Assembly: GCF_000312385.1 (NCBI RefSeq)
Contig: NZ_HE997626.1
Coordinates: forward strand, 545,206 to 609,205
Reading direction: 5' to 3'
DNA length: 64,000 nucleotides
Origin: Tsukamurella sp. 1534
GTDB lineage: Bacteria; Actinomycetota; Actinomycetes; Mycobacteriales; Mycobacteriaceae
The translations under genes were made by a program, and so were the position numbers. Below, one piece after another: positions 1 through 64,000 of this stretch. Position 1 is the stretch's first letter. Every line of letters begins with the position of its first letter. The notes below the pieces were generated by a model. It had not been told where the DNA came from. It saw only the letters and a list, made by a program, of their open reading frames with translations, and searched no databases.

Positions 1-456
1 GAACGAGGCGGACCAACCGCGGTCGCCGGAAAAGACGGCCCCGGAAACCTGGTACCCCTCTGCGGATTCCACCACCGGATCAAGACCGAAACCGGGTGGC
101 TATCCGACCTGCTCGACGACGGCACCGTCGAATGGCATCACCCCGCCGGCGGCCTCTGGCTCACCCCGCCCGGCGCGGCCCAGGAACTCCTGCCAGGCCT
201 CGGGCAACTCACCTGGGACACCCCTGCCCGCACCACCGACAATCAACCCGAACCGCGGGATTTCGACACGCACGCCGAACACCGCGCCCAGCAACGCCGC
301 GACGAACGCACCCGCAATCGCCGCATCCGCCTCGAGAAGGCGAAGAAACGCGCCGAAGAGCGACTGCGGAAAGAACTGGAACGCCAACGCAAGCAGGCCG
401 AGGAACAGGGCATCGAATTCGTGCCCAACACCGAACCCGAACCCCCGCCCTTCTGA
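1..456 (+). CDS. DUF222/HNH endonuclease, 3' end (partial)
   Basis: This is the C-terminal part (151 codons) of a DUF222 / 13E12-repeat HNH endonuclease; the gene starts before the window. The frame is open from base 1 to TGA at 454–456. It contains the second half of the HNH motif (NLVPLCGFHH), then a conserved Trp/Pro-rich stretch and a charged helical tail ending in PNTEPEPPPF. The sequence is closely similar throughout to the end of the complete gene at 33815–35731, including the last ten residues, so the two are paralogues. Members of this family occur in many copies in Mycobacteriales genomes; their biological role is not established. The short gene that follows is on the opposite strand and converges on it. 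Confidence 0.85.
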   Translation, partial: ERGGPTAVAGKDGPGNLVPLCGFHHRIKTETGWLSDLLDDGTVEWHHPAGGLWLTPPGAAQELLPGLGQLTWDTPARTTDNQPEPRDFDTHAEHRAQQRRDERTRNRRIRLEKAKKRAEERLRKELERQRKQAEEQGIEFVPNTEPEPPPF

Positions 457-467
457 CCGGACGTGGC

Positions 468-725
468 TCAGATGGTCCGGGGCAACTCCCCGCGACGTGG
501 GGCGGTATCGGTGGGGCGGCAGGGGCACCAGCCGCCGCGGGTGACGGGAAGGCGGGCCCGATCGGCGATCACGGTGCCGTGCAGCGTGCCGTCGGCGCCC
601 CAGTGCATGACGTCGTGGGTCCAGGGCTCGAGCATGATCTGGTGCCGCTCGATCAACTCGAGGTGGGTGCGGCGGAATTCGCCGAAGCGCGCGGCGATAT
701 CCGCGAGACGGTCGATCAATCGCAT
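468..725 (-). CDS. Small hypothetical protein
   Basis: This is an 85-residue reading frame starting MRLIDRLADIAARFGEFR. The chosen ATG lies 9 bases after an AAGGGG ribosome-binding site; an upstream in-frame ATG at 764 has no such site. The protein has an amphipathic N-terminal helix and then a Trp/His/Cys-containing segment (WTHDVMHWGADG, GGWCPC). I do not recognise a family. It is convergent with the DUF222/HNH gene, with only 11 bases between the stops. It could be a non-coding stretch, but the codon bias and the ribosome-binding site favour a real gene. Confidence 0.45.
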   Translation of the reverse strand: MRLIDRLADIAARFGEFRRTHLELIERHQIMLEPWTHDVMHWGADGTLHGTVIADRARLPVTRGGWCPCRPTDTAPRRGELPRTI

Positions 726-839
726 GGGCTGCCACCCCTTTTCGTCAGTATCGGAGCTCTTCACCCTCGATACTGGACGAGCCGACGCGGCGGGTCCAGC
801 GAGTATTTCTACCGCTATTCGGTGGCGTTGCTTAAGCGT

Positions 840-1382
840 TCAGAACGCCGCGTCCTCGGTATCGGGATCGGGCCGCGTCCAGGCGAGGAGCATCGCGGGA
901 GTCGACATGCCGACGAGCAGCGCGACGAGGGTGAACAGGCCGGACGCGTAGTGCCATGCGTTGTTCCCGTCGGGCTGGGAGATCACCGCGGTGAAGATGG
1001 CGTAGCAGGCCGCGATCAGCACGAGGGTCTGGGTGACGCTGAGCCCGATCGATCGTGCCTCGTTGCGCTGCTGCACCTCCCATTCGTCGAGCGTGTCGGC
1101 CGGCGCGTCGCCCTGCCTGCCCGACACGATCTGGATCGTCGTCCACAGCGGAAAGAACAGCGCGCACGCGGGAAGCCACAGCAGCGGCGCCCATCGAACG
1201 TCGACGTGACAGAGCACCCCGACGACGAACATGAAGGCGTAGACGGCGGCCAATGCCACGACGAGCTTCCGCCGCCGAGACCTGGTGCGCCACTTCGGCA
1301 GCATTCCCGCCGTCCGCTTCTCCTGTTCCAGGAACCTCCGGGTCCGGCGGTCCTGGTATCGGGTGATCATGTTCGTGGTCAT
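840..1382 (-). CDS. Multi-pass membrane protein
   Basis: This 180-residue protein starts MTTNMITRYQDRR and has a basic cytoplasmic N-terminus of about 38 residues. Four hydrophobic segments follow, in two pairs: roughly residues 40–58 and 64–84, then 113–133 and 143–166. The pairs are separated by a polar stretch containing DEWEVQQRNEA. No enzymatic motif is visible. Its start codon overlaps the stop of the XRE regulator at 1379–1382 (ATGA), so the two genes are translationally coupled. Small XRE regulators of this type are commonly paired with a DUF2178-like or other membrane protein. The function is unknown; a role in membrane stress sensing would only be a guess. Confidence 0.75.
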   Translation of the reverse strand: MTTNMITRYQDRRTRRFLEQEKRTAGMLPKWRTRSRRRKLVVALAAVYAFMFVVGVLCHVDVRWAPLLWLPACALFFPLWTTIQIVSGRQGDAPADTLDEWEVQQRNEARSIGLSVTQTLVLIAACYAIFTAVISQPDGNNAWHYASGLFTLVALLVGMSTPAMLLAWTRPDPDTEDAAF

Positions 1383-1660
1383 CGTCGTCCGCCTCTCTCG
1401 TTGCGTCCATACAGTTCCGTCGACAGGGGCCCGAATTCGGTCCGGGAGAACACGGCCTCGACGGGGAGGTCGAAGACCGCGCAGATCCGGAAGGCGAGGT
1501 CCAGGCTCGGGTAGTGGTCCCCGCGTTCCAGCGCCCCCACTGTTTGAGGGTTCACGTCGATCTCCGCCGCCAGGGCGGCGCGACTCATCCGCCGCTCCGC
1601 TCGAAGGACGCCGATGCGATTGAAGATGGGTAGAGAATCTTCACGCCTGACCGGGCTCAT
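1379..1660 (-). CDS. XRE-family HTH regulator (small, YozG-like)
   Basis: This 93-residue DNA-binding protein carries a helix-turn-helix at about residues 16–72 (IGVLRAERRMSRAALAAE, then NPQTVGALERGDHYPS) and a conserved DLAFRICAVFDLPVEAVFS segment typical of short XRE regulators. I chose the ATG at 1660 instead of the further upstream ATG at 1696. A TTGACA–N18–ACAATA promoter ends 6 bases before 1660, which predicts a leaderless message and places the longer start inside the –35 box. The gene is coupled to the downstream membrane protein by an ATGA overlap. An imperfect inverted repeat, CTGTTGT-N9-ACAATAG, lies between the promoter boxes and could be its own operator. Confidence 0.85.
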   Translation of the reverse strand: MSPVRREDSLPIFNRIGVLRAERRMSRAALAAEIDVNPQTVGALERGDHYPSLDLAFRICAVFDLPVEAVFSRTEFGPLSTELYGRNERGGRR

Positions 1661-1666
1661 GCAATC

Positions 1667-1696
1667 TATTGTTGGGAAAACACAACAGTCTGTCAA
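1667..1696 (-). promoter_or_regulatory. Leaderless promoter of the XRE regulator
   Basis: On the minus strand, –35 TTGACA (1691–1696) is followed after 18 bases by –10 ACAATA (1667–1672). The ATG is at 1660, about where transcription should begin. The arms CTGTTGT and ACAATAG form an imperfect inverted repeat across the spacer and the –10 box, a plausible autoregulatory site. Confidence 0.55.
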
Positions 1697-1735: not shown

Positions 1736-3046
1736 TCAGAGTGCGCGCAGCGCGGCCTTGGCCGCGTGCCACCCGACCATGCCGTGCACGCCGGGCCCCG
1801 GGGCGGCGGAGGCGGAACAGAGGTATACCCCGTCGGTGAGGCGGTACGGCGCGAACAGCGTGGGTCGCCGCACCAGCTGGGACGGGATCGCGGCGCCGGC
1901 GGCGATGTCGCCGCCCACGAGGTTCGCGTTCGTGGCCTCGATCCCGGCGGGCCCCACCGACCGGGACTCCACGACGCGCTCGCGCAATCCGGGGGCGTGC
2001 CGTTCCACCTCGGCGAGGACGTTCTCGGTGAGGTCGCCGGGGAATCCGTTGGGGCAGTGCACGTACATGGACACCGGCACCATGGTCCCCGCGCACCGCG
2101 ACGGATCGGCGAGGTACTGCTGGGACAGGATCATCACGGGCCGGCCGGGCATCCGCCCGCGGTTCACCATGCGCTCCTTCTCGGCGATCTCCGCGGCCGT
2201 CCCGCCGAGGTGGACGAACGCGGACCGTCGGAGCTCGTCCCGGGCCCAGGGGATGCCGCCGTCCAGAACCAGGTCCACCTTGAACGCCGCGGGGCCGAAC
2301 CGCCACCGTCGGGCGCGGCGACGCAGCCACCCGGGCGCCCTGTCCCCCAACAACTCCCGCGCCGCGGGAACCCCGGTATCGAGCATCACGATATCCGCGT
2401 CGGGCAGGGCGGTCACCCGCTCGCCGGTGCGGATCGTTCCGCCGTGCGATTCGACGATGCGGGCGAGCCCGTCCGAGATCGCCTGGGACCCACCGAGCGG
2501 CACCGGCCAGGGCCGCACGCCGGACAGCAGGTAGCCGAGCGACGAGGTCATGGGGAGGTGCTGCGGAACCATGCCGTGCGCCGCGACGCCGGCGAACACC
2601 GCGCCGCCCACCCGGCCGAGCGCGGCGGCGGTGGCCGACGCCGGGAGCATGAACCGCGGACCCCACCGCACCGCCTCGGCGGGGTGCAGAGGCAGCTCGG
2701 GCAGCGGGCCGAAGAACGCGGCCATCACGGCGGGCCCGCAATCGGGCACGTCGGCCAGCGTGCCGACGGGGCCGCCCCGGTCGTCGGTGACGGGGTGCGC
2801 AACGTCCAGCTCGGCGGTCCCCCAGTCGATGTCGAGGCCCACGTCCCGCAGCGCGGGCGAGGCGAACGCCAGCGGGTGCCCGGTGGAGAACCGGTCGACG
2901 ACGGTGCCGCGCAGCTCGTCCGACCGGCACGCGCCGCCGATCGTCGGCTCGGCCTCGAGCACCGTCACCTCGACCCCCTCGCGGGAGAGGGCGGCAGCCG
3001 CGGTGAGGCCGTTGGGTCCGGATCCGACGACGACGGCGGAGGTCAT
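1736..3046 (-). CDS. CrtI-like NAD(P)/FAD-dependent oxidoreductase
   Basis: This 436-residue flavoprotein resembles phytoene desaturases and related amine-oxidase-fold enzymes. The N-terminal dinucleotide-binding motif is GSGPNGLTAAAALSREG (about residues 8–24), followed by VTVLEAEPTIGGACRS, the usual acidic end of the second strand and the GG doublet that contacts FAD. The C-terminal motif SASAAPGPGVHGMVG (about 410–424) is the conserved CrtI/PDS flavin-binding end. The substrate cannot be read from sequence; most actinobacterial proteins of this type are annotated only as desaturase-like. No carotenoid genes are adjacent, so a carotenoid role is not supported here. It is divergent from dapC with a 38-bp intergenic region. 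Confidence 0.85.
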   Translation of the reverse strand: MTSAVVVGSGPNGLTAAAALSREGVEVTVLEAEPTIGGACRSDELRGTVVDRFSTGHPLAFASPALRDVGLDIDWGTAELDVAHPVTDDRGGPVGTLADVPDCGPAVMAAFFGPLPELPLHPAEAVRWGPRFMLPASATAAALGRVGGAVFAGVAAHGMVPQHLPMTSSLGYLLSGVRPWPVPLGGSQAISDGLARIVESHGGTIRTGERVTALPDADIVMLDTGVPAARELLGDRAPGWLRRRARRWRFGPAAFKVDLVLDGGIPWARDELRRSAFVHLGGTAAEIAEKERMVNRGRMPGRPVMILSQQYLADPSRCAGTMVPVSMYVHCPNGFPGDLTENVLAEVERHAPGLRERVVESRSVGPAGIEATNANLVGGDIAAGAAIPSQLVRRPTLFAPYRLTDGVYLCSASAAPGPGVHGMVGWHAAKAALRAL

Positions 3047-3084: not shown

Positions 3085-4260
3085 ATGCGCACCGTCGATC
3101 GATTGCAGCCGTTCACGTCGACGATCTTCGCGGAGATCTCCACGCTCGCGGCGGAGACCGGGGCCGTCAACCTGGGGCAGGGCTTCCCGGACACCGACGG
3201 CCCCGCCGGCATGCTGGCCGCGGCGAAGGCCGCCATCGACGGCGGGATGAACCAGTACCCGCCGGGCGACGGCCTGCCCGAGCTGCGGCGCGCCGTCGCC
3301 GCGCAGGTCGAGCGCGACTACGGCCTGGTCCACGACCCCGACGGCGAGGTGCTGGTCACCGTCGGCGCCTCCGAGGGCATCGCGGCCGCGGTGCTCGGCC
3401 TCGTGGAGCCCGGCCGCGAGGTGATCCTCATCGAGCCCTTCTACGACTCGTACGCGGCGACGGTCGCGATGGCCGGCGCGCGGCGCGTGGTGGTGCCGCT
3501 CGTTGAGGACGGCGGCCGGTACCGCCTGGACCCGGACATGCTGCGCGGCGCGGTCACCGAGAAGACGGCGGCGATCATCGTGAACTCGCCGCACAACCCC
3601 ACGGGCACCGTGCTCTCCGATGACGACCTGCGGCTCATCGCCGAGACCTGCGTGGAGCGCGACCTGCTCTGCTTCACCGACGAGGTGTACGAGTACCTGC
3701 TGTTCGACGGCCGCGCGCACCGCCCGCTCGCCACCTTCGACGGGATGCGCGAGCGCACGGTGCGGATCTCCGGCGCCGCGAAGGCGTTCAACGTGACCGG
3801 CTGGAAGATCGGCTGGATCACGGCGCCGCGGGAGCTCGCCGACGCGTGCCGCGCGGCGAAGCAGTGGCTCACGTTCACCGGCGCGACCCCGCTGCAGCAC
3901 GCGGTGGCGCACGCCCTGGACCACGAGACCGCATGGCTCGCGGGACTCGCGCCGGACCTGCAGGCCAAGCGCGACCTGTTGACGAAGGCACTGGTGGACG
4001 TCGGTTTCGAGGTGCACCCGTCGGAGGGCACGTACTTCGTCACCGCCGACGCGCGGCGGCTCGGGTACGACGATGCCGGCGCGCTCTGCCGGGAGATGCC
4101 GCGCACCGTCGGCGTCGCGGCGGTCCCGGTGGCCGCGCTGGCGGACGACCAGGCCCGGTGGGGGCACCTGCTGCGGTTCGCGTTCGCCAAGCGCGAGGAG
4201 GTGCTGGCCGACGGTGCGCGTCGCCTCGCCGGCCTGTCCGGTGGCCGGGAGGCGACCTGA
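3085..4260 (+). CDS. dapC: PLP aminotransferase, DapC-like
   Basis: This 391-residue fold-type I aminotransferase matches, as I recall it, the M. tuberculosis Rv0858c-type N-succinyldiaminopimelate aminotransferase, which acts in lysine and meso-diaminopimelate synthesis. Visible features are NLGQGFPDTDGP (about residues 29–40), the NPTG motif at 171–174, the Asp/Tyr region TDEVYEYL, and the Schiff-base lysine K233 in SGAAKAFNVTGWKIGW. The start is supported by a TAGGCT –10 element six bases before the ATG, which suggests a leaderless transcript. The fold also covers kynurenine aminotransferase and methionine aminotransferase homologues, so the substrate is inferred. No other dap genes are nearby. 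Confidence 0.8.
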   Translation: MRTVDRLQPFTSTIFAEISTLAAETGAVNLGQGFPDTDGPAGMLAAAKAAIDGGMNQYPPGDGLPELRRAVAAQVERDYGLVHDPDGEVLVTVGASEGIAAAVLGLVEPGREVILIEPFYDSYAATVAMAGARRVVVPLVEDGGRYRLDPDMLRGAVTEKTAAIIVNSPHNPTGTVLSDDDLRLIAETCVERDLLCFTDEVYEYLLFDGRAHRPLATFDGMRERTVRISGAAKAFNVTGWKIGWITAPRELADACRAAKQWLTFTGATPLQHAVAHALDHETAWLAGLAPDLQAKRDLLTKALVDVGFEVHPSEGTYFVTADARRLGYDDAGALCREMPRTVGVAAVPVAALADDQARWGHLLRFAFAKREEVLADGARRLAGLSGGREAT

Positions 4261-4315: not shown

Positions 4316-5350
4316 ATGGCCACACCCGCGTCGCCTCTCGGCCCGGACAGCGTGACCTGGCGGTCCTTCGGCGACTGGCGGGGCATGCTCAGCGGCCCGT
4401 GGTCCGGCTCGATGCAGAACATGCACCCCAAGCTCGGCGCGGCGGTGTGGGAGCACTCCGACTTCTTCGGTGAGCGCTGGCAACGGCTCTACCGGTCGCT
4501 GTACCCGATCATCGGCACCGTCTTCGACGAGGACCCCGAGGCCACGGGCCGGCAGGTGCGCGACTACCACCGGGAGATCAAGGGCGCGATGCCCGACGGT
4601 GCGCGCTACCACGCCCTGGATCCCGACGTCTTCTACTGGGCGCACGCCACCTTCTGGTACGGAAACATCCGTTCCGCGGAGGCGTTCGGGCCGAAGCTCA
4701 CCGAGGCCGAGAAGCGCCGGCTGTTCGACGAGTCCTGCGAGTGGTACGCCCGCTACGGCGTGTCCATGCGGCCGGTGCCGGACACCTACGAGGAGTTCCT
4801 CGAGTACTGGGACCGGATGTGCCGCGAGGTGCTGATCGATCACCCGGCGGCCCGGCAGGTCCTCGATCTCACCACCCTGCCGCCGCTCCCGGGCCTGCGC
4901 CGGCTGCCGCCCCCGGTGTGGCGGGCGATCATGACGCCGGGCCGGGCGCTGGCCATGTGGATCACCGTGGGCCTGTACGACCAGTCGATCCGGGACAAGC
5001 TGGGCTTCGAGTGGACGCGACTGGACGCCATCGGATTCCGCGCATTCGGACTGCTGGTGCGCGGCGTCATGGCGGCGCTGCCGCCGCGGTACCGCCGGCA
5101 CCCGCGGGCCCGCGACGCCCTGGACAGGGAGCACGGCCGGGTCCCGCGCGGCGCCCCGAATCTGGAGTCGCCGCGGCGGAACCTCCCGCCCCGCGCCGCC
5201 CGCGAGGACCCGTGGCACTACTGCCCGGTGCACGCGGAGCGCCGCGCGGAGATGCCGTGGAAGTCGAACGAGCAGAAGCCCGTTCAGCCGGCTCAGGAGA
5301 ACGCGGAGATGACCTCGCGCTCGAACAGCTCCAGGCCGGTGGTGTCGTAG
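4316..5350 (+). CDS. Oxygenase MpaB family protein (DUF2236)
   Basis: This 344-residue protein belongs to the MpaB / latex-clearing-protein-like family, which is very abundant in Mycobacteriales. Conserved features are GTVFDEDPEATGRQVRDYH near residues 66–84 and HATFWYGNIRSAEAF near 109–123, a helix with the His expected to lie near the haem. The last 80 residues are basic and low in complexity. The gene starts at an ATG five bases after a TATCGT –10 element, so the message is probably leaderless. Its 3' end overlaps the convergent LLM gene by 58 bp (5293–5350). The physiological substrate of these actinobacterial paralogues is unknown. Confidence 0.8.
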   Translation: MATPASPLGPDSVTWRSFGDWRGMLSGPWSGSMQNMHPKLGAAVWEHSDFFGERWQRLYRSLYPIIGTVFDEDPEATGRQVRDYHREIKGAMPDGARYHALDPDVFYWAHATFWYGNIRSAEAFGPKLTEAEKRRLFDESCEWYARYGVSMRPVPDTYEEFLEYWDRMCREVLIDHPAARQVLDLTTLPPLPGLRRLPPPVWRAIMTPGRALAMWITVGLYDQSIRDKLGFEWTRLDAIGFRAFGLLVRGVMAALPPRYRRHPRARDALDREHGRVPRGAPNLESPRRNLPPRAAREDPWHYCPVHAERRAEMPWKSNEQKPVQPAQENAEMTSRSNSSRPVVS

Positions 5351-8591: not shown

Positions 8592-9437
8592 TCAATCGAA
8601 GGTGAAGCAGGTGCCGCAGAAGTCGCGGCCGAACGGGGTGATCTCGATGCGGCGCCGGATCGTCTTCGCGTAGCGGCCCGCCTTGCCCATCGCGTCCATC
8701 ACCGTGGGCTGCACCTGCAGCAGTTCGTATCGCTGCACCTCGACCTGCTCCTTGGAGAACCAGATCAGGCCCAGGCGGTTGAGGTTGCCGAGGTACGACG
8801 GGAGCCGCTCGGCGTGCCGGCAGCCGGCCACCTCCGAGATCATCGACAGGCCCGCGGCCACGGTCTCCGAGCCGACGCCGAAGGGCCGGTTGGTCCGCAC
8901 GTCCACCGCGGGCTGCGCGCCCTCGAGCACCAGCAGCCGCAGGATGCGGGCCTCGTCGGGGCACAGCTGCATGAGGATGTACTCGAACGCCGGGTGCGGG
9001 GCGTCCGGGAGCGGCGACTGCGCGGACTGCAGCAGTAGCCGGTTGCCCTTCTTCCGCAGTTCCTCCCCCGACGGGATCGGGGGCTGCTCGAACTCGTCCT
9101 CGAACTCCTCGACGATCTCCCCGTGCACGATCTCCCGGGGCGCGGGCTCGGTGAGCGCGACGTCCACCAGATGCTCGGCCTCGTTGACGAACTGCCGGGT
9201 GATGCGCTGCGCGGAGCCGCCCACCTCGCGGCCGAGGTTCAGCGCCGAGTTCGACGCCCGGCCGAGCGCACCGAGGAGGCCTCCGCCGCCCGCCTGCTCG
9301 GGCTCCGCCACGGCCGGAACGTCGGCGTCCCGCGTCGCGATCTCCCAGCGCTCCGAGGCGGTCGCCTCCCGCGCACCGTCGGTCTTCGCCCGCCGCTTGG
9401 CGGCGTCGCGCCGCGCGGCCCCGGACTCGTCACTCAC
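8592..9437 (-). CDS. Abi-alpha / DUF4393-like protein
   Basis: This 281-residue soluble protein is translated from a GTG (VSDESGAARR) only 2 bases after the stop of the DUF445 gene. The N-terminus is charged and disordered, followed by a Gly-rich helix (about 45–60). The core PPIPSGEELRKKGNRLLLQSAQ and CPDEARILRLLVLEGAQPAVDVR (about 125–185) resembles the Abi-alpha/DUF4393 family. The C-terminus holds a CxxC-like CGTC motif. The family name comes from a domain seen in some abortive-infection proteins, but this conserved actinobacterial version is not known to act in phage defence. The tight coupling with a DUF445 membrane protein suggests a shared envelope function. Confidence 0.65.
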   Translation of the reverse strand: MSDESGAARRDAAKRRAKTDGAREATASERWEIATRDADVPAVAEPEQAGGGGLLGALGRASNSALNLGREVGGSAQRITRQFVNEAEHLVDVALTEPAPREIVHGEIVEEFEDEFEQPPIPSGEELRKKGNRLLLQSAQSPLPDAPHPAFEYILMQLCPDEARILRLLVLEGAQPAVDVRTNRPFGVGSETVAAGLSMISEVAGCRHAERLPSYLGNLNRLGLIWFSKEQVEVQRYELLQVQPTVMDAMGKAGRYAKTIRRRIEITPFGRDFCGTCFTFD

Positions 9438-10950: not shown

Positions 10951-11406
10951 TCACGCCGAGAAGATCACATCTCCTGCGGCGACATCGCGCTCGGCCGGAT
11001 CGTCGATCGCGCCCGGCTTGGAGTCCATGAGTACCACGGGACAGATCGCACTGAGTCCACGTTGCCGAATCGCCTCGGGCGAAAAGGAAATCAGCGGCTG
11101 GCCGGCGACGACCTTCGCCTTCTCCTCGGCCAACAGGGTGAACCCCTCGCCCCCGAGATTCACGGTGTCGATGCCGACGTGCACCAGCACCCCGGCGCCG
11201 CCGTCGCCCAGCACGATCGCCGCGTGCGGGTGCAGCTTGAGCACCGTGCCCGCCACCGGCGAACCCACGACCGCCTCGGCACCGTCGGGCGGGACCGACG
11301 GCTCGATGGCCACCCCCGAGCCCACCATCTGGCCGGCGAAGACCTGATCCGGCACCGCCGAGAGCGGCAGGAGCCGCCCGGCGACCGGCGCCAGCACATC
11401 CGTCAC
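10951..11406 (-). CDS. crr: PTS EIIA, glucose/GlcNAc class (Crr-like)
   Basis: This 151-residue cytoplasmic phosphocarrier takes phosphate from HPr and passes it to EIIB. The two active-site histidines are visible: H61 in LKLHPHAAIV and the phosphorylated H76 in GVLVHVGIDTV. The beta-sandwich landmarks APVAGRLLPL and SPVAGTVLKL are also present. The start ATG overlaps the EIIB stop (ATGA at 11403–11406), so EIIB and EIIA are coupled. In this locus the three PTS domains are separate polypeptides, with EIIB and EIIA divergent from EIIC. No HPr or EI gene is in the window, so general PTS components must be elsewhere. Confidence 0.9.
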   Translation of the reverse strand: MTDVLAPVAGRLLPLSAVPDQVFAGQMVGSGVAIEPSVPPDGAEAVVGSPVAGTVLKLHPHAAIVLGDGGAGVLVHVGIDTVNLGGEGFTLLAEEKAKVVAGQPLISFSPEAIRQRGLSAICPVVLMDSKPGAIDDPAERDVAAGDVIFSA

Positions 11407-11739: not shown

Positions 11740-12975
11740 ATGAGTTCCAACTCCGGTTCCGGTATATCAGCACGAAGGCTCGATCTGAGCGGTCTCCAGA
11801 AACTCGGCCGCAGCCTCATGCTGCCGATCGCGGTGCTGCCGGCCGCGGGGCTGCTCCTCCGGCTCGGGCAGGACGATCTGCTCGGCCGCTGGTCGTCGAT
11901 GAAGACGGTGGCCGCCGTGATCGGCGGCGCCGGCGACGCCCTGATCTCCAACCTCCCCATCCTGTTCGCCGTGGGTATCGCAATCGGCTGGGCCAAGAAG
12001 TCCGACGGCTCCACCGCGCTCGCCGCGCTCGTCGGCTACCTCTCGTTCCAGGCGGTCGAGAAGGCCATGTCGCCCGTGGTCCTCGCGGGCGAGGTGGACA
12101 AGTCGGGCGAACCGGCCGTGGTCGATTACGGCGTGCTCGGCGGCATCGTGATCGGCATCCTGTCCGCCGTCCTCTGGCAACGCTTCTACAAGACGAAACT
12201 GCCGGACTACATCGGCTTCTTCTCCGGCCGCCGGCTGGTGCCCATCCTCACCGCCTCGGCCGCGATCGTGGTGGGCGTGATCATGTCGTTCGCGTACCCG
12301 CTGTTCAACTGGGCGCTCACCGGTCTCGGCACCTGGGTCGCGGAGAACTCGGTCGTCGGCGGCGGCGTGTTCGGCACGGTCAACCGGCTGCTGCTCCCCC
12401 TCGGCCTGCACCACATCATCAACTCCGTGGTGTGGTTCATCCTGGGCGATTACCGCGCACCGTCGGGCGAGATCGTGCACGGCGACGTCTCCCGGTTCCT
12501 CCAGGGAGACCCCACCGCCGGCACCTTCATGACGGGCTTCTTCCCCATCATGATGTTCGGCCTGCCCGCCGCGGCGTTCGCGATCTACCGCTGCGCCAAG
12601 CCCGAGAACCGCACGATGGTCGGCGGCATCATGGTGTCCGTCGCGCTCACCAGCTTCCTCACCGGCATCACGGAGCCGCTCGAGTTCTCGTTCATCTTCG
12701 TGGCCTGGCCGCTGCTCCTGGTGCACGCCCTCCTCACGGGCAGCTCGCTGCTCATCGCGAACTGGCTCGACATCCACCACGGCTTCACGTTCTCCGCGGG
12801 CGCCATCGATTACGTGCTCAACTTCGGTAAGGCCACCAACCCGCTGTGGCTCATACCCATGGGGCTCGTCTACGCCGTGATCTACTACTTCACGTTCTCG
12901 TTCATCATCACACGCCGGAACCTCAAGACACCGGGGCGCGAGGACGAAGACGAGGAAGCAGAGATGATCGCTTGA
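11740..12975 (+). CDS. PTS EIIC permease, GlcNAc/glucose class (NagE-like)
   Basis: This 411-residue EIIC membrane domain transports and phosphorylates an amino sugar or glucose together with the separate EIIB and EIIA. It has about ten hydrophobic segments, the N-terminal KLGRSLMLPIAVLPAAGLLLRLG characteristic of the family, LPLGLHHIINSVVWF mid-protein, and the conserved GITEPLEFSFIFVAWPLL (about 310–327) that contains the sugar-contact Glu. There is no EIIB domain at the C-terminus. ATG 11740 follows AGGAGC by 8 bases, so I reject the upstream start at 11713. nagA starts inside its stop codon, giving tight coupling. Confidence 0.9.
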   Translation: MSSNSGSGISARRLDLSGLQKLGRSLMLPIAVLPAAGLLLRLGQDDLLGRWSSMKTVAAVIGGAGDALISNLPILFAVGIAIGWAKKSDGSTALAALVGYLSFQAVEKAMSPVVLAGEVDKSGEPAVVDYGVLGGIVIGILSAVLWQRFYKTKLPDYIGFFSGRRLVPILTASAAIVVGVIMSFAYPLFNWALTGLGTWVAENSVVGGGVFGTVNRLLLPLGLHHIINSVVWFILGDYRAPSGEIVHGDVSRFLQGDPTAGTFMTGFFPIMMFGLPAAAFAIYRCAKPENRTMVGGIMVSVALTSFLTGITEPLEFSFIFVAWPLLLVHALLTGSSLLIANWLDIHHGFTFSAGAIDYVLNFGKATNPLWLIPMGLVYAVIYYFTFSFIITRRNLKTPGREDEDEEAEMIA

Positions 12976-14126
12976 CCGAGCTGCTGCGCGGCACCGTCGT
13001 CACGCCGTCCGGGACCATCGACGACGGCGTCGTCGCCCTCGCCGACGGTCTCATCAGCGAGGTCGGCCCGGCCTCGGCCTTCCCTCCGGCGACGGTTCCG
13101 CCCGCGACCGGCCTGGTGTACGTGCCGGGCATGATCGACGTGCACTGCCACGGGGGCGGCGGGTTCGGCTTCCCGGACTCCGACGCCGACGGTGCGCGGG
13201 CCGCCGCCGAGCACCACCTGCGCCGCGGCACCACCACGATGCTCGCGTCCCTCGTGTCCGCCGCGCCGGAGAAGCTGCTCGAGCGGATCGCGGTGCTGAG
13301 CCCGCTGGTGGACGACGGCACCGTCGCGGGGCTGCATCTGGAGGGGCCGTTCCTGGCGCAGGAGGTGTGCGGGGCGCAGGACCCGCGGTACATCATCGAC
13401 GGCGATCCGGCGCTGCTCGCGCGGCTGCTGGACGCCGCGGGTGGGCGCATCGCGTCGATGACCGTCGCCGCGGAGACCGCCCACTTCGACGAGCTCGCGC
13501 GCCTGCTCTCCGACGCCGGCGCCGTGGTCTCCGTCGGCCACACCGCGGGCGACTACGACACCGTCGCCGCGGCCCTGGGCACGCCCACGGGGCCGGTCAG
13601 CGTCACGCACCTGTTCAACGGCATGCACCCCATGCACCACCGGCACCCCGGCGCGGTCGGGGCCGCGCTCACCGTCGCGGGCGAGGGCCGCGCCGTCGCC
13701 GAGATCATCGGCGACGGGGTGCACCTCGACGCCGGCACCGTGGCGATGGTGTTCGCCACCGTCGGGTCCGACCACGTCGCCCTCATCTCCGACGCGATGC
13801 AGGCCGCGGGCATGCCCGACGGGCAGTACACGCTGGGGCCGCTCGACGTGACCGTCGGGGGCGGGGTCGCGCGGCTCACTACGCCCGACGGTGCTCCCGG
13901 CGCCATCGCCGGCGGCACCGCCTCGGTCTACGACGTGTTCGTCCGCGCCGTCCGGCACGCCGGCGTTCCGCTCGCCGACGCCGCACGCGCAGGCGCCACC
14001 ACGCCCGCCCGCCTGCTGGGGCTCAAGGACCGCGGGGAGCTGGCCGCGGGCCTCCGCGCCGACCTGCTGGAACTGGACGGGGACCTGTCGCTGCGCCGGA
14101 TCCTCCGCGGCGGCGCAGAGGTGTAA
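12972..14126 (+). CDS. nagA: N-acetylglucosamine-6-phosphate deacetylase
   Basis: This 384-residue amidohydrolase converts GlcNAc-6-P to GlcN-6-P and acetate. The HxH metal motif is at residues 58–60 (GMIDVHCHGGGG). LHLEGPFL carries the metal-binding Glu, VSVGHTAGDYD and THLFNGMHPMHHRHPG hold the further His ligands, and LISDAMQAAGMPDG contains the catalytic Asp. The start is TTG at 12972, overlapping the EIIC stop as TTGA, which gives MTELLRGTVVTPSGTIDDGVV. It forms the second gene of the EIIC–nagA operon. A nagB deaminase is not present in the window. Confidence 0.92.
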   Translation: MTELLRGTVVTPSGTIDDGVVALADGLISEVGPASAFPPATVPPATGLVYVPGMIDVHCHGGGGFGFPDSDADGARAAAEHHLRRGTTTMLASLVSAAPEKLLERIAVLSPLVDDGTVAGLHLEGPFLAQEVCGAQDPRYIIDGDPALLARLLDAAGGRIASMTVAAETAHFDELARLLSDAGAVVSVGHTAGDYDTVAAALGTPTGPVSVTHLFNGMHPMHHRHPGAVGAALTVAGEGRAVAEIIGDGVHLDAGTVAMVFATVGSDHVALISDAMQAAGMPDGQYTLGPLDVTVGGGVARLTTPDGAPGAIAGGTASVYDVFVRAVRHAGVPLADAARAGATTPARLLGLKDRGELAAGLRADLLELDGDLSLRRILRGGAEV

Positions 14127-14223: not shown

Positions 14224-15057
14224 CTAGAGGGAGAGCTCGCCGCGAATCGTGGTGGTGGTCGCGCCGCCGATCCAGGTCTCGCCGTCTGCGCGCTCGACGT
14301 GGACTCGGCCGCTGCGGCCGAGTCTCGTGCCCTGCGATGCGATGTAGCGGCCGGGCAGCACGTCGCCGATCAGCCACTGCGCCAGGCCGGCGTTGAGGGA
14401 CCCGGTGACCGGGTCCTCGGGCACGCCGAGATCAGGACAGAAGGCGCGGACCTCGACGGCGCGCTCGTCGCCCTCGGGGTACGGGCCGACGGCTCCCACC
14501 TGCAGCTCCCCCATCGTCGCGAAATCCGGTTCCAGCGCGAGCACCGCGTCCGCGTCGCGCAGCCGCGCCGCGACCCAACCGGGGCCGTTGTCCACCCACT
14601 GCACCGCCAGCAGGTCCGACGGTGCGAGGCGCAGGCTCGCAGCCACGCGCTCGACGACCTCCGGCTCGGCCGGCCCGCTGCGCACGAGCGGCGGGGCCGC
14701 GAAGGCGAGCGTCCCCGCGCGCCGCAGCCGCACCAGCCCGGCGCCGCACTCCTGCACGAGGGTCCCAGGGGTGCGCGGCGCCCCTCCCGCCTCGAGCCAC
14801 GCGTGCGCGCTGCCGAGGGTCGGGTGCCCGGCGAACGGCAGTTCCCCGCCCGGGGTGAAGATCCGCAGCCGGTAGTCGGCGGCGGGGTCGGTGGGCCGCA
14901 GCAGGAAAGTGGTCTCGCTGAGGTTCGTCCACCGCGCGAACGCCGCCATCTGCTCGTCCGTCAGCCCGTCGGCGTCGTGCACCACGGCCACCGGGTTGCC
15001 GAGGAGCGGTTCCTCGGAGAAGACGTCGACCTGCCGGAACACGTTCACGTGGTGCAC
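14224..15057 (-). CDS. PhzF-family isomerase
   Basis: This 277-residue PhzF / epimerase-fold protein has two similar halves. The catalytic Glu of the family is E48 in TNLSETTFLL. Other landmarks are LGNPVAVV near residue 19, FTPGGELPFAGHPTLGSAHAW near 67–87 and the C-terminal PVTGSLNAGLAQWL, which is the second GHP-like loop. True phenazine genes are absent, so it is one of the many PhzF-like proteins of unknown substrate. It is convergent with nagA and is followed upstream by the ABC transporter operon on the same strand, 40 bp away, so it may be the last gene of that transcript. Confidence 0.85.
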   Translation of the reverse strand: MHHVNVFRQVDVFSEEPLLGNPVAVVHDADGLTDEQMAAFARWTNLSETTFLLRPTDPAADYRLRIFTPGGELPFAGHPTLGSAHAWLEAGGAPRTPGTLVQECGAGLVRLRRAGTLAFAAPPLVRSGPAEPEVVERVAASLRLAPSDLLAVQWVDNGPGWVAARLRDADAVLALEPDFATMGELQVGAVGPYPEGDERAVEVRAFCPDLGVPEDPVTGSLNAGLAQWLIGDVLPGRYIASQGTRLGRSGRVHVERADGETWIGGATTTTIRGELSL

Positions 15058-30268: not shown

Positions 30269-30364
30269 GATGCAACCCTCGCATCCCGTGTGTATTGAAT
30301 CGCGCCGGCCCCGGGGAGCGGGGAGAACCGGGCACCGTCGGCTCGGCGGCGGTAGACTGTCCGC

Positions 30365-50527: not shown

Positions 50528-51808
50528 ATGGATTCACCTCGACCCGCACCCCACGCCACCGCGCGCAGCACGTTCGCCGGCATGGCGGGACTGACGGTCG
50601 GCGGCGGACTGCTGGTCCTGTTCGTCGACGGCATCCTGCTGAGCCAACTCCTCGCGCGCCTGTCGATCAGCGGCGTCGTCGACCCGGTGTGGTCGTTCTT
50701 CGCCACGATCGGGGCGGCCCTCACCGGCACGGGCCCCGTCGACGTGGACGCGGCGACCGGGAGCGACATGGCCTGGGCGTGGCAGTTCCACCTCGGCTGG
50801 ATCGTGGTGGCACTGGCCGGATCCGCGGTTTGGGCCATGCTCGACCGCGACCACCCCGACCTGCGCGGCGCCTACCGCGCGCTCAGCGGGATCGCCGCGA
50901 TCAGCCTGGCCGTGGCGATGCTGATCTACGGCCTGGCCAAGGCCGTCCCGATCCAGATGGGATACATGAATCTGCCCGCGCACCAACTGCAGTCGGTCGG
51001 CGACACCGGCGGATTCTCGATGCTGTGGGGATCCATGGCGGCCTCCACGCCGTACACGGTGATCACCGGGATGATCGAGGTGGCATCCGGAATCCTGTTG
51101 CTGTTCCGCAGGACCCGGCCGGCGGGCGCGATGCTCGCGATCGTGGCGCTGACGCAGATCGTCCTGCTCAACCTCTTCTACGACGTGCCCGTCAAACTGT
51201 TGTCGCTGGAGCTGCTGCTGACCGCTGTCGCACTCACGACACCGTCCTGGCCCGCACTGCTGCGGATCATCCTGCCGCGGAGCACATCCGGCGGACCACT
51301 ATGGGCCCGGGCTGCGGTCGTGACGGCGGTCCTCGCGGTGATGGCGGCCGTCGGGGCGCAGAACGTCGACCGGTGGCGGAGCATGGACACCCCGCGCAGT
51401 CCGCTCGACGGAACCTGGCGGGCGACGTCGTTCACCGTCGACGGTGCGCCGGCCCTCGCCGCGTCGTCCGGCCCGGTGTGGACCGCCGTCGCGATCACCC
51501 TGCGCGGCACGCCCGGCCGGCCCGCGCAGGGCTCGGCACAGGACAGCGTCGTGACGCAGCGGCCGGACGGCACCGTGCAACCGTTTGGCCTCACGGTGTC
51601 CGACGGTGCGCTCCTCCTCCGGTCCGGCGCCGGCGCCGCGCCGGTGCGGCTGGCCGCGTCCCAGCGATCCCCCGATTCCCTCTCCCTGTCCGGGGACGTC
51701 GACGGGCGGCGGATCGAGGGCACCTACCAGCGCCGGGCGATGGCCCGGGAGTCCACCGAGATCCGCCTCGTCCAGCCGCCCGTCGACCGGAGTAGGCCGC
51801 GGGTCTGA
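50528..51808 (+). CDS. Multi-pass membrane protein (DoxX-like) with C-terminal domain
   Basis: This 426-residue protein has about eight hydrophobic segments between residues 20 and 275 (for example AGLTVGGGLLVLFVDGILLSQLL, IVVALAGSAVWAML and LLSLELLLTAVALTT). After them comes a soluble C-terminal half (about 285–426) with repeated beta-strand patterns such as PLDGTWRATSFTVDGAPA and SLSGDVDGRRIEGTYQR, which look like a lipocalin-like or META-like fold. The membrane half resembles DoxX-type proteins. I do not recognise a named family. ATG 50528 is used; a start at 50510 is possible. It shares its promoter region with the iron-box gene, so iron control is possible. Confidence 0.7.
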   Translation: MDSPRPAPHATARSTFAGMAGLTVGGGLLVLFVDGILLSQLLARLSISGVVDPVWSFFATIGAALTGTGPVDVDAATGSDMAWAWQFHLGWIVVALAGSAVWAMLDRDHPDLRGAYRALSGIAAISLAVAMLIYGLAKAVPIQMGYMNLPAHQLQSVGDTGGFSMLWGSMAASTPYTVITGMIEVASGILLLFRRTRPAGAMLAIVALTQIVLLNLFYDVPVKLLSLELLLTAVALTTPSWPALLRIILPRSTSGGPLWARAAVVTAVLAVMAAVGAQNVDRWRSMDTPRSPLDGTWRATSFTVDGAPALAASSGPVWTAVAITLRGTPGRPAQGSAQDSVVTQRPDGTVQPFGLTVSDGALLLRSGAGAAPVRLAASQRSPDSLSLSGDVDGRRIEGTYQRRAMARESTEIRLVQPPVDRSRPRV

Positions 51809-53048: not shown

Positions 53049-57005
<3,957 letters not shown>

Positions 57006-57032: not shown

Positions 57033-60000
57033 TTAGTTGGCGAGGTCTTCGGCCGAGGCGTTCTCGTTGCGCGACAGGTTGATGCCCAGGTTGGCAGCAG
57101 CGCGCTCGAGGTCCTCGTCGTCACCGTCCGCCATCTCGATCGCGGCGCCGTCGGACGACAGCACCTCGACGTTGAGGCAGAGCGACTGGAGCTCCTTGAG
57201 GAGCACCTTGAACGACTCGGGGATGCCCGGCTCGGGGATGTTCTCGCCCTTGACGATCGCCTCGTACACCTTCACGCGGCCGACCACGTCGTCCGACTTG
57301 ATGGTGAGGAGCTCCTGCAGCGTGTACGCCGCGCCGTAGGCCTGCATGGCCCAGCACTCCATCTCGCCGAAACGCTGGCCACCGAACTGCGCCTTACCAC
57401 CCAGCGGCTGCTGCGTGATCATCGAGTACGGGCCGGTGGAACGGGCGTGGATCTTCTCGTCGACCAGGTGGTGCAGCTTCAGGATGTACATGTAGCCCAC
57501 CGCGACCGGGTACGGGAACGGCTCGCCGGAACGACCGTCGAACAGCGTCGCCTTGCCGTCGCCGCCGACCATGACGTCGCCGTCGCGGTTCGGGAGCGTC
57601 GAGCCCAGCAGGCCTGCCAGCTCCTCGTCGCGGGCACCGTCGAACACCGGGGTGGCGGTGTTGGTGTCCTTGGGCTGGCTGTACATCTCCTCGGGCAGCG
57701 CCGACGCCCAGTCCGGGATGTTCCCGTTCTCGTCGCGAACGTCCCAGCCCGTCTTGGCGACCCACCCGAGGTGCGTCTCCAGGATCTGGCCGATGTTCAT
57801 ACGACGGGGCACGCCGTGCGTGTTGAGGATGATGTCGACCGGGGTGCCGTCCGGCAGGAAGGGCATGTCCTCGGCGGGCAGGATCTTGCCGATGACGCCC
57901 TTGTTGCCGTGGCGGCCGGCCAGCTTGTCGCCGTCCTGGACCTTGCGCTTCTGGGCCACGTACACGCGGACCAGCTCGTTCACGCCCGGGGCCAGCTCGT
58001 CGTCGTCGTCGCGCGAGAACACGCGGACGCCGATGACCTTGCCGGTCTCGCCGTGGGGCACCTTCAGCGAGGTGTCGCGCACCTCACGCGCCTTCTCACC
58101 GAAGATCGCGCGGAGCAGGCGCTCCTCCGGGGTCAGCTCGGTCTCGCCCTTCGGGGTGACCTTGCCGACCAGGATGTCGCCGTCGCGGACCTCGGCACCG
58201 ATGCGGATGATGCCGCGCTCGTCCAGGTCGGCCAGCACCTCGTCGGAGACGTTCGGGATGTCCCGGGTGATCTCCTCGGCGCCCAGCTTCGTGTCGCGGG
58301 CATCGATCTCGTGCTCCTCGATGTGGATGGACGTGAGCACGTCCTCCTCCACCAGGCGCTGCGAGAGGATGATCGCGTCCTCGTAGTTGTGGCCCTCCCA
58401 CGGCATGACCGCGACGAGCAGGTTCTTGCCCAGCGCCATCTCACCGTTGTCGGTGCAGGGGCCGTCGGCCAGGACCTGGCCGGTCTCGACCCGCTGGCCC
58501 GCGTTGACGATCGGGCGCTGGTTGGCGCAGGTGCCCTGGTTCGACCGCGCGAACTTGCGCAGGCGATGCGTGGCACGGGTGCCGTCGTCCGCCATGACGG
58601 TGATGAAGTCGGCCGAGACCTCCTCCACGACGCCCGGCTTCTCCGTGATGACCACGTCGCCGGCGTCGACCGCGGCGCGCAGCTCCATACCGGTGCCGAC
58701 CAGCGGCGACTCGCTACGGACCAGCGGCACGGCCTGACGCTGCATGTTCGCGCCCATGAGGGCACGGTTGGCGTCGTCGTGCTCGAGGAACGGGATCATG
58801 GCCGTCGCGACCGACACCATCTGGCGCGGCGAGATGTCCATGTACTCCACCGCCGAGACGGGGACCATCTCGACCTCGGAGCCGCGCTTCCGCACGAGCA
58901 CGCGGTCGTCGGTCAGGCGCCCCTGGTCGTCGGTGGCCGCGTTCGCCTGCGCGATGTAGTAGCGGTCCTCCTCGTCGGCCGTCATGTAGACGATCTCGTC
59001 GGTGACGACACCGTCGGCGATGCGGCGGTACGGCGTCTCGATGAAGCCGAACGGGTTGACCCGCGCGTACACCGACAGCGAGCCGATCAGGCCGATGTTC
59101 GGGCCCTCAGGGGTCTCGATCGGGCACATGCGGCCGTAGTGCGACGGGTGGACGTCGCGGACCTCGAGGCCGGCGCGCTCACGCGACAGGCCGCCCGGGC
59201 CCAGCGCCGACAGGCGGCGCTTGTGGGTCAGGCCCGACAGCGGGTTGTTCTGGTCCATGAACTGCGACAGCTGCGAGGTGCCGAAGAACTCCTTGATCGC
59301 CGCCGAGACCGGGCGGATGTTGATCAGGGTCTGCGGGGTGATCGCCTCGACGTCCTGCGTGGTCATGCGCTCGCGCACCACGCGCTCCATGCGGGACAGG
59401 CCCACCCGGAGCTGGTTCTGGATCAGCTCGCCCACGGTGCGCAGGCGGCGGTTGCCGAAGTGGTCGATGTCGTCGACCTCGACGGGCACCTCCTCGCCCT
59501 GCGGCACGGTCATGTACGTCAGCTGCTCCGACGGGGCCTCGTGCAGGCGCACCAGGTACTCGACGGTCGCGACGATGTCCTCTTCGGTGAGGACGAGCGG
59601 CTGCGTGCCGTCCTCGTTGGCCGGCAGGCCCAGCTTCTTGTTCAGCTTGTAGCGGCCGACGCGAGCCAGGTCGTAGCGCTTCTCCTTGAAGAACAGGTTC
59701 TCCAGCAGGGTCTGCGCGGACTCCTTGGTGGGCGGCTCGCCCGGGCGCAGCTTGCGGTAGATGTCGAGCAGCGCCTCATCGGTGCCGGCGGTGTTGTCCT
59801 TCTCCAGGGTGGACCGCATGATCTCCGAGAAGCCGAAGCGCTCGAGGATCTGCTCGCTCGTCCAGCCCAGCGCCTTGAGCAGCACGGTGACCGGCTGGCG
59901 ACGCTTGCGGTCGATGCGGACGCCGACGGTGTCGCGCTTGTCCACGTCGAACTCGAGCCACGCGCCGCGGGCCGGGATGACCTTCACGCTGTGCAGCGGC

Positions 60001-60545: not shown

Positions 60546-61019
60546 GATGCGTCCTCTGCTGTGCCTAGTAACGTTGCCAAAATCGTGCCGACGGCAACCC
60601 GCAGAGAAAACGCCCTCTAGGAGGAGACGAATATTCAGATGGGCAGGAGGCAGCCAGCGCAACGTCCAACATTAGCAGAGGGAGACCACCCCCGCAAGGG
60701 GCAGTCCAGACTAGGCCCCTGAGGGGCCGTGCGCAAGGACCGTACGCCAGGTGAATCGAACACCCTCGCCGAACCGGGGCCCGCGGGCTGGCTGCCGTGC
60801 GAACCGCGACGTCGAGGCGTACGTCCTGCCGATAACTGTGACCCGAATCGGGGAGAACGTCAAGCGAAACCGCCGTTCTCTTCGAAAATCAGGTGAGAGT
60901 CCCGTGACCGCCGGGGCGTCCGACGGTGCGCCTCCCCCGCCCGACGGGGCCGCGGACCGTCGGGAACGACGAAGCCGCGCCCGGCGCCCCGGCGGGCTCC
61001 GAGCGCGGCTGCGCGTCGA
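60546..61019 (-). promoter_or_regulatory. rpoB upstream region
   Basis: This 474-bp gap has no gene I can support. It should hold the rpoB promoter and a leader. The best candidate on the minus strand is TTGACG (60858–60863) with CAGTTA (60833–60838) after 19 bases, which is weak. A short GGCCCCT-G-AGGGGCC hairpin (60714–60728) lies within the leader. A copy of the 9-mer GCACCGTCG is at 60921–60929. Confidence 0.4.
60973..61010 (-). terminator. Putative terminator after mceG
   Basis: AGCCGCGC (60973–60980) pairs with GCGCGGCT (61003–61010), and CGG/CCG inside them can extend the stem around a GC-rich loop. It starts 10 bases after the mceG stop. There is no U-tract, so its strength is uncertain. 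Confidence 0.5.
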
Positions 61020-62343: not shown

Positions 62344-62369
62344 CAGAGCACTGACGTGCGGTTCGGTTA

Positions 62370-62765: not shown

Positions 62766-62864
62766 GGTGGCGTCCTTCCGTTCAGTCTTGCTCGCTGATC
62801 CGCGAGGCAAGGTGGTGATGTTCCCGCGCGCGGTGCCCGCGGGAGGTTCGCTGGATCAGCGGAA

Positions 62865-63395
62865 TCAGGCGGCAGCCTCTTCGGCGGCCTTCTTCTCCTG
62901 CAGCGCGGCGCCCAGGCGGGCCACCTGCGAGGCGGGAGCGTTGAACAGGCCAGCGGCCTTCGCCAAGTTGCCCTTCATGGCACCGGCGAGCTTGGCCAGG
63001 AGCACCTCGCGCGACTCGAGATCGGCGATGCGCTCGATCTCCGCCACGGACAGCGCACGGCCGTCCATGTAGCCGCCCTTGATGACCAGGGCCTTGTTGT
63101 CCTTGGCGAACTTCTTGATCGCCTTGGCGGCCTCGACCGGCTCACCCTCGATGAAGGCGATCGCGGTGGGACCCTCGAACAGCTCGTCCAGGCCCTCGAC
63201 GCCGGCGTCAGCCGCGGCGCGCTTGACCAGGGTGTTCTTGGCGACGGAGTAGGTGGTACCCGCCCCGAGCGAGCGACGCAGCTCGGTGATGGAACCGACC
63301 GACAGTCCGCGGTACTCGGTGACCACGGTGGCCGTGGACTTCGAGAACTGCTCGGCGATCTCTGCGACCGCGGCGACCTTCTCGGCGTTTGCCAT
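62865..63395 (-). CDS. rplJ: Ribosomal protein uL10
   Basis: This 176-residue protein anchors the L7/L12 stalk to 23S r[43 protein letters not shown] (about residues 2–41) is the rRNA-binding part. [19 protein letters not shown] leads to the C-terminal helix, which recruits L12 dimers and ends [13 protein letters not shown] 63395 follows GAGGAGG. A leader of about 200 bases with several hairpins precedes it, as usual for L10 operons. Confidence 0.98.
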
Positions 63396-63600
63396 ACTTC
63401 GCCTCCTCTCTTGCGTGTCATCCGACGGAGAAGGCTCGGGCCCGAAACGACGAGAACCCCGGCGCAGGGCGCACGGGGTTCGGTGAAGAATCCTCGTCCT
63501 CCTGCGTGGGTCGCCGGCTCGGGGCCGGACCTTCGATCGGGCTCGCGCCCGATGACCGACGGTCTCTGGTGGAACGATCCGGTTGACACCGGATTCCGAG
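63396..63600 (-). promoter_or_regulatory. rplJ leader, probable L10-binding autoregulatory RNA
   Basis: The leader can form GAACCCCG/CGGGGTTC (63454–63461 and 63474–63481), ATCGGGC-TCGC-GCCCGAT (63536–63553) and ATCCGGT-TGAC-ACCGGAT (63577–63594). Such hairpins are expected for an L10 leader, but the kink-turn was not verified. Confidence 0.55.
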
Positions 63601-63605
63601 GGACC

Positions 63606-63634
63606 AGAGTACGGGAACCGGCGGGCTACGCCAA
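63606..63634 (-). promoter_or_regulatory. rplJL promoter
   Basis: On the minus strand, TTGGCG (63629–63634), a 17-base spacer and TACTCT (63606–63611) form a fair vegetative promoter, placing the start near 63599. Confidence 0.5.
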
Positions 63635-63645
63635 ATCGTCGCCGG

Positions 63646-64000
63646 TCAGCCGATGGTCACGCCGGATTCGGCGTAGACGATGCGCAGGGCCAGGCCGGCC
63701 TCCGGGCCCATGACCCGCGCCGCGAGGTCGACGAACGCCGCGGTGAACTCGGGCCCGTGCGCGGCGGCCGCCGCGTCCGACGGTGCGCCGTGGTGCGCCA
63801 GTTCGTGCAGGACCACCAGCTCCCGCAACGCCCACGCCCCGTCGCGCCCGGCGGGCACCGCCACCGTCGGGCGACGGTCCGCTCCCCGCTCGTAGTGCGC
63901 GCCGGTGGCGCCCGCGCGGGCCCGGACCCGCACCTCGCCGGGGCCGAGCACGCGGTCGACGTAGGCCTGCACCGAGTCCACCGACCCGAACCGGGCCTCG
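63646..64000 (-). CDS. TIGR04338-type metallohydrolase, 3' end (partial)
   Basis: This is the C-terminal 117 codons of a zinc metallohydrolase of the TIGR04338 group; the 5' end is beyond the window. The motif HELAHH (in [15 protein letters not shown]) provides two metal ligands and the catalytic Glu. The later segment [20 protein letters not shown] provides the third ligand, HGPEF, which resembles SprT-like proteins. The frame continues upstream as [16 protein letters not shown], so the ATG-like GTG at 63981 is not the real start. The function of the family is unknown. The rplJ promoter follows 12 bp downstream of the stop. Confidence 0.85.

Follow-up and report, generated by a model that had tools for sequence, protein, structure and literature searches.

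A clade-specific 9-mer dispersed throughout Tsukamurella genomes is probably a self-recognition signal

The window analysed here is a stretch of 64,000 nucleotides from Tsukamurella sp. 1534 that includes the genes rpoB and rpoC. Throughout this window the nine-base word GCACCGTCG recurs in 49 exact copies, 30 on the plus strand and 19 on the minus strand, and with both strands pooled it is the commonest 9-mer present. The copies, all located by exact match and in three cases also followed in alignments with relatives, are as follows.

122..130, plus strand, exact copy
2899..2907, minus strand, exact copy
3089..3097, plus strand, exact copy
4103..4111, plus strand, exact copy
4209..4217, minus strand, exact copy
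4594..4602, minus strand, exact copy
9373..9381, plus strand, exact copy
11279..11287, plus strand, exact copy
12457..12465, plus strand, exact copy
12991..12999, plus strand, exact copy
13187..13195, minus strand, exact copy
13318..13326, plus strand, exact copy
13886..13894, minus strand, exact copy
14617..14625, minus strand, exact copy
15715..15723, plus strand, exact copy
20854..20862, plus strand, exact copy
21323..21331, minus strand, exact copy
23185..23193, plus strand, exact copy
23395..23403, plus strand, exact copy
23774..23782, plus strand, exact copy
24542..24550, plus strand, exact copy
24941..24949, plus strand, exact copy
25261..25269, minus strand, exact copy
27791..27799, plus strand, exact copy, exact in 12/12 aligned relatives
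29165..29173, minus strand, exact copy, altered in 12/12 aligned relatives
29768..29776, plus strand, exact copy, exact in 12/12 aligned relatives
30332..30340, plus strand, exact copy
34010..34018, minus strand, exact copy
35394..35402, plus strand, exact copy
36193..36201, plus strand, exact copy
37685..37693, plus strand, exact copy
38135..38143, minus strand, exact copy
38704..38712, plus strand, exact copy
40580..40588, minus strand, exact copy
40847..40855, minus strand, exact copy
44192..44200, plus strand, exact copy
45147..45155, plus strand, exact copy
45170..45178, plus strand, exact copy
45515..45523, plus strand, exact copy
46098..46106, plus strand, exact copy
49011..49019, plus strand, exact copy
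50296..50304, minus strand, exact copy
51439..51447, minus strand, exact copy
51601..51609, minus strand, exact copy
53100..53108, minus strand, exact copy in rpoC
55045..55053, plus strand, exact copy in rpoC, opposite strand
57634..57642, plus strand, exact copy in rpoB, opposite strand
60921..60929, minus strand, exact copy
63778..63786, minus strand, exact copy

An initial annotation of the window had counted 43 copies (28 plus, 15 minus); the repetition it described is real, though copies were undercounted on both strands, and all 13 of its example coordinates are exact copies. Base composition predicts 1.9 copies on both strands, in agreement with the figure of about 2 given there. Markov models of order 1, 2, 3 and 4 predict 3.7, 4.6, 7.0 and 12.6 copies, so the third-order model named in the annotation as a check leaves the observed 49 unexplained. 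The expectations at orders 5, 6 and 7 (24, 41 and 47) approach the observed count because such models hold the subwords of GCACCGTCG itself. The 30:19 strand imbalance is within chance (p = 0.15), as is that of the whole genome (p = 0.64). Near-identical sequence flanks the copies at 122 and 35394 on both sides (window 102-150 and 35374-35422), which suggests a paralogous gene pair.

The enrichment persists in the rest of the genome, where the annotation had proposed to look for it. The genome of the window (4.50 Mb, 4 contigs) holds 2,466 copies, 1,221 on one strand and 1,245 on the other, or 0.55 per kb, compared with 72 (34 + 38) for the reversed word. In 13 other core Tsukamurella genomes 1,911-4,002 copies were counted, the highest number in a genome of 4.9 Mb, and densities across the 14 core genomes were 425-817 per Mb (computed from rounded genome sizes, G000 excepted). 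Two outlying members of the genus, G007 and G008, hold 827 and 1,247 copies, or 165 and 265 per Mb. Among 61 genomes, the 16 of the genus thus span 827-4,002 copies; the rest of the family (21 genomes) gave 52-669, and the rest of the order (24 genomes) 51-713. The densest genome outside the genus reached approximately 177 per Mb (148 genomes of the class searched, G000 included). Of the 14,641 9-mers that reached 25 copies or more, GCACCGTCG ranked first for genus-specific density, and among the genomes searched it is clade-specific. No comparable dispersed 9-mer was found in 15 stretches of at most 20 kb, each from a different other genus of the family, a length in which a weak dialect would escape. 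One of the 15, stretch L132, was dominated by a clustered repeat.

Coding and intergenic copies were then compared with expectation, the genes being called with a home-made caller and no annotation used. Synonymous codons were permuted within genes in 100 shuffles of 464 kb of the window's genome. The 247 coding copies observed compare with 39.9 +/- 6.0 expected (maximum 54), and the 17 intergenic copies with 2.6 expected, so that the fold enrichment is about equal within genes (6) and between them (6.5). Over 1.30 Mb from four core species (687 copies vs 117.5 expected), all six frame and strand classes were enriched, from 3.2-fold (194 vs 61.5) to 27-fold (108 vs 3.9), the latter in the frame GCA CCG TCG with its rare codon; two of the classes contain few copies (6 vs 0.3 and 21 vs 2.2). 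Stretches from other Actinomycetes gave 170 vs 114.4, and two rare-codon classes there had one copy each, against 0.9 and 1.2 expected. The enrichment is therefore at the level of DNA, in every reading frame and between genes, and the annotation's view that protein sequence is not its cause was borne out.

The word is also visible in the proteins themselves. The tripeptide Ala-Pro-Ser was seen 264 times vs 151.6 expected (170.0 by an order-1 model), a ratio of 1.74 (1.55), and its five permutations lay at 0.69-1.08 of expectation; G008 gave an Ala-Pro-Ser ratio of 0.85 and other Actinomycetes one of 0.68. Exactly GCA CCG TCG encoded 108 of the 264, while GCA makes up 4.9% of alanine codons. 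Once these motif-coded copies are removed, 156 tripeptides are left against the 151.6 (or 170.0) expected; the excess consists of motif-coded copies. The abundance of GCACCGTCG apparently costs Tsukamurella something in protein sequence.

Sites of GCACCGTCG are conserved between species above background. Exact retention of sites of the window's genome was found for 70 of 112 site-species pairs in a first syntenic region (21.6% for all 9-mers there) and 25 of 55 in a second (25.8%), where four species alone gave 11 of 28. G008 was counted in the first region and left out of the second. Because the species paired are related, the pairs do not count as independent events; the distinct sites number 29. 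Retention was uneven, as the three aligned copies listed above illustrate. With amino acids held constant, the inner codons of motif sites were kept at 0.88, 0.77 and 0.73 in three frames, and the same codons outside motifs at only 0.58, 0.52 and 0.65. In the frame GCA CCG TCG, 280 of 283 were kept, compared with 0.39 for 31 other synonymous cases, the sole control in that frame.

G008 is the member most distant from the window in one compared gene (75% identity vs 83-85% for 12 core members; no full-length match to this gene was obtained from G007 and G013), and with its few copies it makes a useful outgroup. G007 and G008 exceeded the synonymous shuffle 4.1- and 3.2-fold, the value for G007 coming from 34 kb only. 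Core sites were not above chance in G008: of the 9 sites in the window's genome that aligned, none was exact, and eight stretches from other core species gave a single exact pair in 38. For sites of G008 itself, 3 pairs in 23 and 1 in 24 were exact, compared with 10-12% for all 9-mers. The burst of GCACCGTCG therefore came after the core lineage had parted from that of G008, unless it was lost in the latter.

The core word has a weak consensus extension, S-S-GCACCGTCG-R, with G or C at the two preceding bases and a purine after. The flanks differ slightly among species: the leading pair ahead of the core is GC in the window's species and CG in G004 and G001, the two being equal in G009. Perfect words were enriched 5.2-6.9-fold, single mismatches 1.4-1.6-fold and double mismatches 1.05-1.17-fold; changes at position 1 kept 1.7-3.4-fold enrichment, and most changes in the middle of the word kept little or none. 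Coding DNA held 755 single mismatches vs 553 expected, so the background supplies much of them. Orientation to genes was near-balanced in the coding DNA of the four core species (323 copies with the gene, 364 against), on which ground an RNA-level signal was rejected; terminator hairpins were rejected as well, inverted pairs not being in excess. The single contig of G004 gave 232 sites in 20 evenly spaced stretches, 116 on each strand. With the origin moved in 240 kb steps and the terminus taken half-way round, at most 53.4% of them lay in one orientation for any placement. Density climbs with local GC content, a stretch of 62.5% GC having 2 copies in 20 kb. A gene-end bias, which PMC2346458 reports for Pasteurellaceae, was rejected: no consistent trend across gene quintiles was found in three species, though density in G004 rises towards the ends.

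Mobile elements were examined for the same word. Over 3,099 bases the second contig of G009 shows complete identity to plasmid pTpau01 of Tsukamurella paurometabola DSM 20162. The plasmid held 10 copies in the 70 kb counted (a further ~30 kb was left out); an order-3 model predicts 4.5 there, and the chromosomal density of the strain would give 33. Five Tsukamurella genomes contain, between them, seven gene clusters with a terminase, small at about 5.5 kb each and with extents judged from the genes around the terminase gene. These had 5 copies in 37.9 kb, where 3.6 would be expected by order-3 and 24.5 at chromosomal density. The density of GCACCGTCG is thus low in the one plasmid and in the terminase-bearing elements. 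Three Tsukamurella phages were counted (TPA2, TIN2 and TIN3; TIN4 was left out). TPA2 (61.4 kb) carries 17 copies, all in its first 50 kb, where 4.1 were expected and 9 was the maximum in 200 shuffles; the host genome G009 has 85 vs 16.8, so phage and host species are enriched to a similar degree. TIN2 and TIN3 were not clearly enriched, with 3 and 2 copies in 50 kb vs 1.4 and 1.3. Two Gordonia phages with a related tape-measure gene had 1 and 3 copies and one mycobacteriophage had 1. A search of IMG/VR with the TPA2 terminase returned no phage relative, only TPA2 itself. As a yardstick, Haemophilus phage HP1 has 17 uptake signal sequences (USS) in 32 kb vs 0.6 expected; since HP1 is likewise rich in the signal of its host, a signal-rich phage fits an uptake system and does not prove one.

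Kept in thousands of copies per genome, shared by the genus and visible in its proteins, the word shows that DNA is subject, genome-wide, to a sequence-specific process of some sort. For DNA uptake, dispersed signals of such a kind are known from two families of proteobacteria, and they are the closest analogue of GCACCGTCG. Like the USS of Haemophilus influenzae and other Pasteurellaceae, AAGTGCGGT, the Tsukamurella word is an asymmetric 9-mer with about one copy per 1-2 kb, equal in both orientations, clade-wide, with a graded series of mismatches, changed by substitutions in aligned relatives and carried by a phage of the host. For USS and for the DNA uptake sequences (DUS) of Neisseriaceae, a graded mismatch series is reported in PMC1939737, and that of Tsukamurella has the same shape though it is far weaker. 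According to PMC1626085, USS and DUS lack orientation bias, as does GCACCGTCG, and DUS are likewise dispersed, clade-specific and common to a genus, though the word itself differs.

The word is asymmetric, balanced between strands, clade-specific, present in thousands of copies and visible in proteins, a combination that is uptake-signal-like, and GCACCGTCG is probably a previously unrecognised genome-wide self-recognition signal. No report of the motif was found, by title, among the matches listed from the open-licence literature. The reading that we favour, with somewhat less than even confidence and by analogy, is that of a double-stranded-DNA signal specific to Tsukamurella that works like the USS and DUS; scattered over the genome in both orientations, it would be maintained there by selection or molecular drive. 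A component of a DNA-uptake or recombination path would favour fragments bearing GCACCGTCG, and DNA taken up from kin would carry the word. Recombination would swap imperfect copies for perfect ones, and copies would build up wherever proteins tolerate them. The only candidate readers identified are the comEA-comEC pair, DprA, and the single match of the genome to PF00437, a secretion-ATPase family. ComEC (PF03772) and DprA (PF02481) occur in 16/16 genomes of the genus. comEA adjoins comEC in G000, above the Pfam cut-offs and below the NCBIfam full-length cut-offs TIGR01259 and TIGR00361. PF00437 has one match in 14 of the 16 genomes and two in G008, one of them below cut-off, and no match was found in the draft genome G007. 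If GCACCGTCG is an uptake signal, then Tsukamurella, an opportunistic pathogen, would exchange genes by a self-selective route, and a reader protein should be findable.

Several observations weigh against an uptake role, and some of these favour the main rival explanation, which we consider only slightly less likely: that GCACCGTCG is an intracellular double-stranded-DNA site of a genus-specific DNA-binding protein, either a nucleoid organiser or a recombination or self-protection factor reading either orientation, with copies under weak chromosomal selection. Both uptake and chromosome organisation were among the four roles that the annotation had offered. GCACCGTCG lacks several USS and DUS habits published in PMC1626085. 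Unlike USS, and equally unlike DUS, the Tsukamurella copies are not evenly spaced (coefficient of variation, CV, 0.96-0.99 vs 0.98-1.06 for random placement in three species), not in inverted pairs (no consistent excess of close ones was found) and not denser between genes (0.30 per kb vs 0.61 within). Perfect copies do not outnumber single-mismatch forms either (273 vs 874 in 484 kb), and at approximately 6-fold over the codon null the enrichment is far weaker than that of USS. A binding site suits the random spacing, the absence of terminator pairs and the less strict consensus, as it does the conservation of sites in place across species. The enrichment of TPA2, similar to that of its host, could equally mean an intracellular role. 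Most control genomes also have comEC and dprA, as do the much more weakly enriched G007 and G008, so the clade specificity is not accounted for by these genes. Among the matches listed from the open-licence literature, none was by title a report of transformation in Tsukamurella. A binding site in turn lacks a candidate protein, and we judge thousands of 9-mer copies that affect amino acids to be unusual for such a protein; TIN2 and TIN3 at background and a plasmid well below the chromosome are further difficulties for it. If this explanation were true, the word would be a genome-wide binding motif, matched to no known one here.

The least probable of all the explanations considered is that GCACCGTCG arose as a by-product, whether of codon usage, of protein sequence, of base composition or of the pattern of mutation, though some results lean that way and thereby away from an uptake signal. 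Other Actinomycetes exceed the same synonymous shuffle 1.5-2.0-fold, so the excess is partly generic, and a stricter shuffle, with two bases either side of every codon also fixed, predicted 105 of the 247 copies and so halved the excess; by design this shuffle retains part of GCACCGTCG. High-order Markov models come near the observed count, and density drops in low-GC stretches. The permutations of the tripeptide span 0.55-1.52 in other Actinomycetes; such ratios therefore vary by themselves, the excess of Ala-Pro-Ser alone would count as modest evidence, and its codon make-up is the stronger part. An artefact of codons, proteins or composition was nonetheless rejected on the enrichment of all frames and of intergenic DNA, the rare-codon frame GCA CCG TCG included, and on that codon make-up; the Ala-Pro-Ser excess is found in the core genus and is absent from G008 and other Actinomycetes, and motif sites are conserved above synonymous controls. 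Chi sites, which act in recombination, are short, asymmetric and over-represented words, as is GCACCGTCG, and the annotation had offered a Chi-like role. Where Chi is well known it is oriented with replication, and the Tsukamurella word is not. An oriented signal of this type, or of the FtsK-orienting polar sequence (KOPS) type used in chromosome segregation, would fit the abundance and the short asymmetric form, but is very unlikely given the equal division of the G004 sites between strands and the absence of replichore bias for every origin placement tried, and was rejected on strand balance. The annotation's suggestion of methylation, here taken as a methylation or restriction-modification motif with a link to an orphan methyltransferase, fares little better and we regard it as improbable. 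Its precedent is HIP1 (GCGATCGC) of cyanobacteria, like GCACCGTCG a very frequent, clade-specific short word, which PMC4390886 ties to methyltransferases; unlike it, HIP1 is a palindromic octamer. The search covered two methyltransferase families, PF00145 and PF01555. Among the 16 members of the genus, PF00145 is missing from G011 and G015 and PF01555 was found only in G000, G007, G013 and G015, so that G011 has neither and yet holds 3,261 copies of GCACCGTCG. Neither family is genus-wide or in all core members, which lowers the methylation reading.

A second word bears on the plausibility of the uptake reading. The octamer CGGCATAC first stood out in a locus of Humibacillus xanthopallidus retrieved via rpoB (L088; also L217-L230), and the genome of H. 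xanthopallidus KV-663 has 2,908 copies in 5.3 Mb (1,450 + 1,458), compared with 406 of the reversed word. Phycicoccus sp. Soil748 has 625 copies in 4.0 Mb (reversed word 43), and six other genomes queried have 5-102. In 304 kb of Humibacillus 135 copies of the octamer compare with 10.8 by the synonymous shuffle, a 12-fold enrichment, and the density between genes was twice that within. Its spacing is more regular than random placement gives (CV 0.84 vs 0.97), and 9 pairs lay less than 60 bases apart vs 6.4 at random, 9/9 of them inverted. Perfect copies, at 181 vs 242 single mismatches, are not in the majority. CGGCATAC thus shows most of the layout habits of USS and DUS, including inverted close pairs, and by analogy is a strong candidate for an uptake-like signal; these habits raise the general plausibility of uptake signals in Actinobacteria. 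It is conceivable, although we would not put the chance near even, that uptake-signal systems arose within the Actinobacteria on more than one occasion, with GCACCGTCG in Tsukamurella and CGGCATAC in Humibacillus of independent origin. Each word would then serve DNA exchange as a self-recognition code in lineages other than Pasteurellaceae and Neisseriaceae, one strong enough in Tsukamurella to reshape protein sequences.

Some inverted CGGCATAC pairs lie between genes and are possible hairpins. Repeated words of other kinds were seen in two further genera. In Nocardioides stalactiti (L104:10511-14165), CCCCAGCA recurs mostly at 111-base steps and forms a tandem array, not a dispersed signal. 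In 23.6 kb of Pseudonocardia acaciae (L036), GCTGTCC, an apparently oriented word, occurs 28 times on one strand vs 5 on the other, many copies lying in the first 4 kb.

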